From Nitrososphaerales archaeon (lineage in GTDB: Archaea; Thermoproteota; Nitrososphaeria; Nitrososphaerales; Gagatemarchaeaceae): a stretch of DNA of 47,096 nt. The stretch spans positions 1 through 47,096 of the forward strand of contig JASHUU010000055.1 of NCBI GenBank assembly GCA_030039795.1, read 5' to 3'. The stretch's first letter is position 1, and every line of letters starts with the position of its first letter. The position numbers and the translations under genes are program-made. A model generated the notes under the pieces. It saw nothing but the letters and a program-made list of their open reading frames with translations, made no database searches and was not told the DNA's origin. Positions 27,456 to 30,755 of the stretch are shown here, in pieces.

Positions 27456-28613
27456 CTAACCCAGCTTCTTCTTCAGTTCCTCGGTCCGGTCCGTCTTCTC
27501 CCAGGTGAAGTCGCTGTCTTCCCTGCCGAAGTGGCCGTAGCACGCGGTCTTCCTGTAGATCGGGCGCAACAGGTCGAGGTTCTGTATTATCATCCCCGGG
27601 CGCATGTCGAAGACCTCCTCGGCGGCCTTCGTTATCCTCTCGTCGGCAGCCTTCCCGGTGCCGAGGGTGTCCACCATGAAGGAGACTGGCTTGGCCACGC
27701 CAATCGCGTACGCTATCTGGACCTGGCACTTCTCCGCCAGCCCTGCCGCAACTATGTTCTTCGCGATGTACCTCGCCATGTAGTTCCCAGACCTGTCCAC
27801 CTTCGAAGGGTCCTTCCCCGAGAAGCAGCCGCCGCCGTGCGAGCCCACGCCGCCGTATGTGTCCACGATTATCTTCCTCCCTGTCAGCCCGGAGTCGGCC
27901 AAGGTCCCGCCCACCACGAACCTCCCTGTAGAGTTGATGAGCATCCTCGTGCGGCCGTCCAAGAGCTCCTTTGGTATCACCTGCTTGACCACCTTCTCGA
28001 TGACATCCTGCTCCGTCTTCTTCTCGTCTACGTCCTCCCGGTGCTGAGCCGCGACGACCACCGTGTCCACCCTCACAGGTTTGCCGCCGTCGTACTCCAC
28101 GGTCACCTGGGACTTGCCGTCGGGCCTGAGGTAAGGCACGACCCCCTGCTTCCTGACCTCGGCGAGCCTCCGCACCACCCCGTGCGCCAGCATTATCGGG
28201 AGAGGCATCATCTGCTTGGTCTCCTTCGTCGCGTAGCCGAACATCATGCCCTGGTCTCCCGCGCCCATGGCCTCGGGCCGCCCGGTCACGCCCCTGGAGA
28301 TGTCGGGCGACTGCTCTTCGATTGAGACGAGCACGCCGCACGTCTCCCAGTCCAGACCGTCCTTCGCGTTGTTGAAGCCTATGTCTCTCAGCACCTCGCG
28401 GACGACCTGCTTGATGTTGACGTAGGCGGAGGTCGTTATCTGACCGGTGACTATGACCGTGCCCTGCATTATCAGGGTCTCGCAGTCGACCCTCGCCGTC
28501 TTGTCCTTCGAGACTATGGCGTCCAGGACCGAGTCGGATATCTGGTCCGCGCACTTGTCGGGGTGGCCCTCGGCCACGCTTTCGGAGGTGAACAGGTGCC
28601 TGCCTGCGGGCAT
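27456..28613 (-). CDS. metK: S-adenosylmethionine synthetase, bacterial/eukaryotic type
   Basis: A 385-aa enzyme that makes SAM from ATP and methionine. It is the bacterial MetK type, not the divergent archaeal MAT type. [20 protein letters not shown] opens the protein, signature 1 is [12 protein letters not shown] and signature 2 is [16 protein letters not shown], where Cys replaces the usual Ala. ATG 28613 gives the normal N-terminus. A TATA element near 28700 leaves a G+C-rich leader of about 60 nt containing a GAGGGGAG Shine-Dalgarno-like stretch, unlike the leaderless neighbours. It is divergent from an HTH-CBS regulator. Confidence 0.96.
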
Positions 28614-28696
28614 CTGCTATGCGCTCCCCTCGGCGCGGCCCGCCCAGACGGGTGGAACGTCTCCCCTGCGATTCACGCGCCGCCCTCCTTGTAATA

Positions 28697-28706
28697 CTTT
28701 ATATTG
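28697..28706. promoter_or_regulatory. A/T element shared by metK and the HTH-CBS gene
   Basis: ACTTTATATT reads as a TATA box on both strands. It lies about 37 nt before GTG 28739 (leader about 10 nt) and about 90 nt before ATG 28613 (leader about 60 nt). An imperfect inverted repeat, ATTC (28722-28725) and GAAT (28732-28735), covers the predicted start of the HTH-CBS transcript. Confidence 0.5.
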
Positions 28707-28738
28707 GTTATTGACCTTACTATTCTACTAGGAATATC

Positions 28739-29302
28739 GTGTCCGGCCAGGTGGTGGACCCCAGTCAGCTGAAGAGGATACGGGTGCAGCTCGGGTACAC
28801 GCAGGCGGCCCTGGCCCAGGCGGCCGGCGTTTCGCAGTCTGTGATAGCCAAGATCGAGGCGGGCAAGGTCGACCCCACCTACCGCACGATCTCGGAGATT
28901 TCGAGGGCGCTCTTCTCCAGGATGGCGAAGAAGAGCAAGCGCGCCTCCGACGTGATGAGCTCCCCCGTGATCGGCGTCCAGGAGTCAGTGGTCCTCTCCG
29001 AGTGCGTCGAAGTGATGAAGAGGAACTCCATCTCCCAGATGCCCGTATTCTCGGGAAGGAGGATGGCGGGGACGATAACAGAGGGGCAGATCATGGCGAC
29101 CGTGTCCGAGGCCGCCGACCCGGCTGCGGTCCTCGGCCAGAGGGTGAAGGACCATGTCCTTCCAGCGTTCGCCATAGTAGGCAAGGACACCCCGGTCGAA
29201 GCCCTCATGTCGCTGTTCAGACTCCTTCCGGCGGTGCTGGTGTCGTCAGGGGACGAGATAGTGGGGATAGTGACGAAGATCGACGTCCTCTCGGCCGCCT
29301 GA
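28739..29302 (+). CDS. HTH-CBS transcriptional regulator
   Basis: A 187-aa protein. Residues about 9-58 form a Cro/XRE-type helix-turn-helix (RIRVQLGYTQAALAQAAGVS, IAKIEAGKVDP). Residues about 66-185 form a pair of CBS domains (ASDVMSSPVIGV, RMAGTITEGQIM, EIVGIVTKIDVL). CBS pairs bind adenosyl ligands such as AMP, ATP or SAM. The protein is therefore probably a ligand-sensing DNA-binding regulator. It is transcribed away from metK and shares its promoter region, so SAM is a natural candidate ligand (inference). GTG 28739 is the start. Confidence 0.88.
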   Translation: MSGQVVDPSQLKRIRVQLGYTQAALAQAAGVSQSVIAKIEAGKVDPTYRTISEISRALFSRMAKKSKRASDVMSSPVIGVQESVVLSECVEVMKRNSISQMPVFSGRRMAGTITEGQIMATVSEAADPAAVLGQRVKDHVLPAFAIVGKDTPVEALMSLFRLLPAVLVSSGDEIVGIVTKIDVLSAA

Positions 29303-30521: not shown

Positions 30522-30755
30522 TTGGGCAAGACTTTGCCAACGAAGTATACGACAGTTTCAATTCCGAAGACACTCCACGCGAGGCTCGAGAAACTCATCT
30601 CGACAAAGACCGGCTTCAAGTCGGTCTCCGACTACGTCACGTTCGTGCTCAGGGAAGTCGTGACGATGCACGAGACGTCGCAGAGCCCCGACCCGTTCTC
30701 CAGCAAGGACATCGAGGAGATCAAGGCCCGCCTGAAGGCGCTCGGCTACCTGTAG
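30522..30755 (+). CDS. Small ribbon-helix-helix-like protein preceding ATP sulfurylase
   Basis: A 77-aa protein whose N-terminal half reads as an RHH strand and helices (YTTVSIPKTLHARLEKLI, then KSVSDYVTFVLREVV). The C-terminus IEEIKARLKALGYL is a separate short helix that recurs in the small protein at 35257 (AIEDRLKSLGYF). It could regulate the sat operon that follows or bind a partner protein. TTG 30522 is given; TTG 30534 is possible. The next gene begins within 10 nt of its stop, so the two are one operon. Confidence 0.75.
   Translation: MGKTLPTKYTTVSIPKTLHARLEKLISTKTGFKSVSDYVTFVLREVVTMHETSQSPDPFSSKDIEEIKARLKALGYL

Follow-up and report, generated by a model that had tools for sequence, protein, structure and literature searches.

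Every cell uses S-adenosylmethionine (SAM) as methyl donor, and the bacterial supply of SAM is under well-known regulators and riboswitches. One of these regulators, MetR, activates metE from a site common to its own gene, and this arrangement is the closest in logic to the one described here, in which the gene of an HTH-CBS protein lies divergent from the SAM synthetase gene metK; MetJ, MetR, SahR and SamR are not known to have a CBS domain. Similar to our regulator, MJ0100 (HcyBio-CBS) of Methanocaldococcus jannaschii (structures 3kpb, 3kpc and 3kpd) is an archaeal protein whose CBS pair is tied to methionine synthesis, but it is an enzyme fusion not known to have an HTH, whereas the CBS pair of the regulator is fused to a DNA-binding domain instead. 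The regulatory domain of human cystathionine beta-synthase (4uuu) also consists of a CBS pair with GVVTAID-like and xxQ SAM-pocket motifs, as in the regulator; this protein is, however, an enzyme and not a transcription regulator, and its Asp444 corresponds to Ser99 here. CcpN, a bacterial HTH-CBS or CBS regulator, controls gluconeogenesis. CcpN and BCARR are likewise DNA-binding regulators with CBS domains, but both work at bacterial promoters and neither controls methionine/SAM; BCARR, in the part of the source considered here (PMC3795697), controls branched-chain amino acids.

The nearest work found in the open-access literature is a study of proteobacterial methionine/SAM regulons (PMC4239095); in the part considered here, MetJ, MetR, SahR and SamR serve the same pathway and the same targets (metK, metE, metF, and metX), but they are bacterial and belong to other protein families (SahR is ArsR-type). 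On the archaeal side, the activators TFB-RF1, Ptr2 and EarA have their sites just upstream of BRE and TATA, as here, and the TFB-RF1 site is palindromic and at a conserved distance; the differences, as far as the relevant parts of PMC5937170 and PMC5512572 go, are that TFB-RF1 recognizes TCTG-N5-CAGA, that the three have other targets, and that activation in our case is deduced from position. No archaeal methionine or SAM regulator was found in the open-access literature (preprints, and most subscription papers, lie outside it), and what we describe is a candidate for a new type of pathway regulator for methionine/SAM in archaea, with a new operator.

The regulator gene and the region it shares with metK

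The window (the whole 47,096-nucleotide stretch that was analysed) comes from a genome assembly of 1,287,344 bases that is 79% complete. A sequence-only reading of it had described an XRE-type HTH and a CBS pair in one protein, encoded divergently from a SAM synthetase gene with which it shares its promoter region, and both descriptions are borne out. The regulator gene is an ORF with a GTG start (28739-29302, forward strand; 187 amino acids), and its product has the domain order of HTH-CBS regulators, with an N-terminal HTH_3 (XRE-type) DNA-binding domain (residues 11-59; 28769-28915, forward strand; Pfam, 1.5e-14) followed by a pair of CBS repeats (residues 69-187; 28943-29299, forward strand; Pfam, 2.9e-13). 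On the other side lies metK (27456-28613, reverse strand), the proposed target, which encodes a bacterial-type S-adenosylmethionine synthetase (TIGR01034, 574 bits) and is intact and intein-free; the gap between the two genes is 125 bp, and the interval 28614-29302, whose first position adjoins the metK start codon, holds the common intergenic region and the regulator gene. An AlphaFold model of the regulator (from 27 sequences) has a mean pLDDT of 90.2 and contains both the HTH and the CBS folds, and in its recognition helix S32, Q33, A37, K38, and E40 are invariant across 27 orthologues. The protein does not group with MetJ, MetR, SahR or SamR, since its Pfam matches are to HTH and CBS only; all of its NCBIfam matches are far under their cut-offs, and none of them names these four regulators.

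The same reading had noted an inverted repeat, ATTC/GAAT, over the predicted start of the regulator transcript (28722-28735). This repeat is exact and forms the core of a longer palindrome, TATTC-N6-GAATA (28721-28736; TATTC-TACTAG-GAATA, TATTCTACTAGGAATA), hereafter the operator, which is conserved across relatives and is therefore not a product of chance. The window holds two matches to it with at most one mismatch, where 0.26 are expected, and the one at 28721-28736 is the sole exact match both there and in the entire assembly. On the regulator side the operator covers the predicted transcript start, and it often abuts the start codon. On the metK strand it is followed by GTAAGG, a TCA element (28712-28714, reverse strand; 6-8 nt from the operator), ATAACC, and a TATA box, AATATAAA, 15 nt from the operator; this box (28698-28705), which reads TTTATATT on the forward strand, can serve the metK and the regulator directions alike. 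Elsewhere in the window, a 71-amino-acid protein with a KYTTVSIPxxLHxRLEKL-like sequence and no Pfam match is encoded just before the sulfate adenylyltransferase gene (30540-30755, forward strand), and relatives of it are found near the HTH-CBS gene at three other loci (L100, L101, and L105).

Possible ligand of the CBS pair and proposed mode of action

The regulator model matches many CBS pairs, including ST2348, AcuB, human cystathionine beta-synthase, DarB, and MJ0100, and it shares the CBS-pair fold of the SAM-sensing pairs among these (MJ0100 and the human enzyme). The matched structures carry AMP, ADP, ATP or Ap4A (AcuB), AMP or c-di-AMP (DarB), SAM (the human enzyme), and MTA and SAM (MJ0100, 3kpb); by profile, MJ1225 is one of the best matches of solved structure, and MJ0100 scores an E-value of 4.5e-16. 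The SAM pocket of the human enzyme uses FDQ and GVVTAID motifs (PMC4276868, in the part considered here), to which we matched ISQ (residues 98-100) and GIVTKID (176-182) of the regulator by eye. S99, Q100, G176, and D182 are invariant in 27 orthologues and T179 nearly so; D182 corresponds to the ribose-binding aspartate of the GhhTxxD motif, a role taken from the same part of PMC4276868. The equivalent of FDQ is ISQ in the window and FSQ in many relatives, so that the glutamine is kept and the aspartate is replaced by serine; SQ and the GhhTxxD aspartate are also kept in HTH-CBS paralogues found beside an aRF1-like gene. The pocket residues thus appear compatible with SAM yet do not single it out, and SAM is a plausible ligand on this evidence. 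A ligand with an adenosyl group is likely; that it is one from the methionine cycle is the reading we favor slightly.

A lesser but real possibility is that the CBS pair senses the AMP/ATP energy state or another nucleotide, and that the methionine/SAM genes follow energy supply rather than SAM. AcuB and DarB, with their adenine nucleotides, are among the best structural matches and MJ1225 is the best sequence match, as this reading would have it, but MJ0100 and the human enzyme, with SAM/MTA and SAM, are likewise among the matches, and the [IF]SQ and GIVTKID motifs resemble the SAM pocket of the latter. In addition, the targets (see below) are confined to one pathway, as expected for a sensor of its end product.

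The distance between the operator and the promoter of its target is nearly fixed. In a first set of 30 promoters already judged to be targets, the best TATA box is 12-17 nt away from the operator in the target direction in 26 (shuffled sequences gave a mean of 3.3 and a maximum of 9 in 300 runs), the other four being off this spacing; in a second set of such promoters, picked by gene before the spacing was inspected, all 12 have the TATA box at 12-17 nt (shuffled mean 1.36, maximum 7; 2,000 runs). A CA dinucleotide, usually as TCA, stands 7-8 nt past the operator in 32 out of 39 target promoters, where 2.2 are expected; this count omits G044 cysK, L243, and G044 MAT (the archaeal-type SAM synthetase gene), three of the first 30 that are all spacing misfits. 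The operator sites at G044 cysK and at the MAT genes of G044 and G058 fit the TATA spacing poorly, so we gave them less weight.

Archaeal activators bind upstream of BRE/TATA, and repressors within or downstream of these elements, in the parts of PMC5937170 and PMC5512572 considered here. The operator, just upstream of BRE/TATA at a conserved distance, has the position of archaeal activators that recruit TFB or TBP. That it directly precedes the metK TATA box, with a fixed spacing, points to activation of metK; that it covers the regulator's own start points to autorepression. The simplest reading of these positions would be that the targets are activated while the regulator's own gene is repressed. 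We consider activation of the target genes rather probable on this basis.

The same regulator with the same regulon could instead be a classical repressor of its own gene and of the methionine/SAM genes, with SAM as co-repressor as in the logic of MetJ, which we regard as possible but rather unlikely; the operator spans the regulator's own predicted start, at the targets it is close enough to BRE that it could hinder TFB, and feedback repression by SAM is frequent in bacteria. Bacterial regulons of this pathway are described in the part of PMC4239095 considered here. What counts against the repressor is the fixed distance to the target TATA box in both promoter sets, since plain steric repression needs none, together with a site that lies upstream of BRE, as for archaeal activators. 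Under activation of the targets, the regulator would bind TATTC-N6-GAATA specifically and as a dimer, and it would repress itself by covering the point where its own transcript, leaderless or with a short leader, begins; the CBS pair would most likely sense SAM or a close adenosyl product, and plentiful SAM would switch activation off, which is the least certain step.

The pair, the operator, and the proposed targets in other genomes

Within the family (a sample of 37 genomes, G000-G036), 20 genomes have a clear HTH-CBS orthologue (E-value 4.5e-50 or better) and 13 have the bacterial-type metK; all 13 of the latter also have the HTH-CBS gene, and the 17 genomes that lack a clear orthologue all lack this metK too. 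HTH-CBS and metK are neighbors in 10 of the 13, nine of them with a gap of about 70 to 340 bp; in the remaining one of these (G027) a methionine synthase gene sits between metK and the HTH-CBS gene. Methionine synthase and MTHFR-like genes come after metK in several relatives. The genes are 4.7 kb apart in G004 and 29 kb apart in G022, and in G012 they are on different contigs; each of these three genomes nevertheless keeps a 9/10 operator upstream of metK, at a distance of about 316-343 bp, and a TATA box follows it after 15 nt. In total, an operator with 9-10 of the 10 letters is found upstream of metK or its operon in 13 of the 13 genomes. The idea that the regulator controls metK through the common promoter, raised from the window alone together with a proposal to check the pair in relatives, thus gains in silico support, since metK retains the operator also in genomes that have the regulator at another place; the pair itself is conserved, and is met in divergent arrangement again in DPANN (see below). 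The outcome named in advance as speaking against the idea, a regulator unlinked to metK in every relative, is therefore not what the genomes show. Upstream of the archaeal MAT of those family genomes that have one, we looked for the operator and did not find it. We looked in the source organism's own incomplete assembly for a counterpart of the G001 methionine synthase and found none; the regulon of this organism may therefore comprise only metK and the regulator.

Four metK genes of the family carry an in-frame intein (L104:2147-4651 in G027, L092:2527-5031 in G029, L105:2329-5025 in G015, and L139:3142-5682 in G009), for which the two copies that were scanned gave LAGLIDADG_3 matches and weak Intein_splicing matches; it interrupts the active-site loop, and in L139 it was read to follow GGGCY and precede SGKD. 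Separately, a region of G003 (G003:C1:236279-259153, in part L123), a genome without bacterial-type metK, contains HTH-CBS pieces, some with stop codons; this is apparently decay of the regulator where its target is missing.

Beyond the family, we examined 80 loci. Apart from the window, they come from a scan with the recognition-helix pattern, of which the best 80 of 433 were kept and 79 used (L225 was dropped because its upstream sequence is missing). An exact TATTC-N6-GAATA is found between -170 and +20 of the HTH-CBS start in 43 of the 80 loci, some of which are near copies of one another, where the remaining sequence of these loci predicts 0.18; reversed, 5-spacer and 7-spacer control patterns are found in none of the 80. 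With one-mismatch sites (23 loci) included, 66 of the 80 have 9 or 10 of the 10 letters, against 0.72% of 4,000 random windows; the 80 loci span Nitrososphaerota, Bathyarchaeota, and DPANN (Pace-, Woese-, Nano- and Micrarchaeota). The 14 loci without a site of 9/10 or better include several Nitrososphaerales orthologues that have no met neighbor. Named relatives returned by the scan (best 80 of 433) include Ca. Gagatemarchaeum, which places the window with a relative of such acid-soil Nitrososphaerales; near relatives of the window's genome may be outside that collection. In Bathyarchaeota there are often two operator sites, 26-28 bp apart. A paralogous HTH-CBS group with the recognition helix STS[ML]INQIESG occurs in other families of the order (L140, L141, L151, L156, L160, and L162), where it adjoins the aRF1-like gene, named so by eye.

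A bacterial-type metK divergent from the regulator recurs in DPANN (L240, L257, and L258, and with insertions in L259 and L265). The DPANN and the Nitrososphaerota regulators form separate supported groups, as do their MetK proteins, in trees that were midpoint-rooted and without a bacterial MetK outgroup; a single recent transfer of the metK-regulator pair from DPANN is thus unsupported. At four loci (L144, L225, L228, and L274) the HTH-CBS gene immediately precedes, in the same orientation, the gene of the unrelated archaeal-type SAM synthetase (MAT).

The operator also precedes other genes of the pathway. Exact copies are found before asd-aspartate kinase and before metY-metX-metW in G023, before methionine synthase and before a MoeZ/SAMP-like and cystathionine gamma-synthase gene group in G031, and before metY-metX (G029), metE-metK-metF (G027), and thrC (G051). 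In Bathyarchaeota it lies between the HTH-CBS gene and divergent HcyBio+CBS genes (the MJ0100 family), which it precedes, and before two MetE-like genes with MTHFR. In a further test, 35 sites were taken by motif and the genes read afterwards: 14 of 52 exact sites (12 genomes), two from a strict-motif scan, and 19 of 82 (20 genomes), with the known site L381 kept outside the 35 as a control. Twelve of the 35 precede methionine/SAM or thrC-like genes, which is not an unbiased rate, since the sites were picked by eye with a bias to consensus-like spacers. These twelve are a cystathionine synthase-like gene, MetA, MetH, HcyBio, archaeal MAT, and a thrC-like gene, followed by metK (Micrarchaeota), metK (Woesearchaeota), archaeal MAT, metY, a cystathionine synthase-like gene, and a thrC-like gene; the thrC-like genes (L340 and L380) were named from their likeness to G051 thrC and match only PALP in Pfam. 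One further site precedes another HTH-CBS gene (L341), and the other 22 are within coding sequence or before genes without an evident role in methionine metabolism. L265 and L329 are one identical site, which we excluded as a metK match owing to a homing-endonuclease-like ORF between site and metK. The strict motif, TATTCC-N4-GGAATA, has matches in 70 of 300 genomes of the class; we take most of these for background, since many are in families with other HTH-CBS paralogues, and the two new ones that were read (G288 and G162) are both relevant. Sites in L120, L121, L124, L126, L127, L128, L129, and L131 are inside ORFs and were set aside as without promoter meaning.

Some sites precede genes of other kinds. 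In G013, an exact operator with a fitting TATA box precedes an ECF-transporter S component (L093:3615-4289; PF07155), a possible importer of methionine or of a methionine precursor; in a Woesearchaeota locus, an operator is followed after 46 bp by a methyltransferase-like gene (L327:1305-2072) that has no Pfam match and is possibly a new regulon member. In L265 (4299-5117, between operator and metK) and L371 (1023-1961), the operator is closely followed by a homing-endonuclease-like ORF, and the two ORFs are alike by eye.

Judged by its sites, the HTH-CBS protein seems to regulate the methionine/SAM pathway as a whole, the unrelated archaeal-type SAM synthetase included. It is very improbable that the regulator controls itself only and that metK is a chance neighbor: the window's single exact site is nearest the regulator and some orthologues have no met gene nearby, but this reading is largely refuted by conserved sites at metK in all 13 family genomes, also where it is unlinked, and at many unlinked methionine genes in distant archaea. 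Control of metK by a structured RNA, such as a SAM riboswitch, that would include the palindrome, common as riboswitch control of metK is in bacteria (PMC4239095, in the part considered here), has a negligible chance and was rejected, with zero Rfam families at gathering score in the window and the palindrome upstream of the metK TATA box and so outside the predicted transcript.

A proposed control of methionine and SAM synthesis in archaea

Control of metK by the HTH-CBS regulator is well supported in silico, and that an HTH-CBS methionine/SAM regulon exists is in our judgment very likely. The best overall explanation, and a likely one, is that the HTH-CBS protein is the transcription regulator of methionine/SAM genes in this organism and, beyond it, in a large group of archaea. 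A wider proposal, to which we give an even chance, is that one SAM-responsive activator family and one composite promoter code (TATTC-N6-GAATA, N6, TCA, BRE, and TATA) have run methionine/SAM synthesis across Nitrososphaerota, Bathyarchaeota, and DPANN, either since an early ancestor or via wide transfer, capturing the two unrelated SAM synthetase types and a number of alternative homocysteine/methionine routes as these came and went.

If true, this would be a founding archaeal methionine/SAM regulon. A regulator, its operator, and predicted targets in three archaeal groups make archaeal SAM control simply testable; they also offer a marker for naming methionine genes in uncultured archaea, and the fixed composite promoter would be a clean model for archaeal activation.
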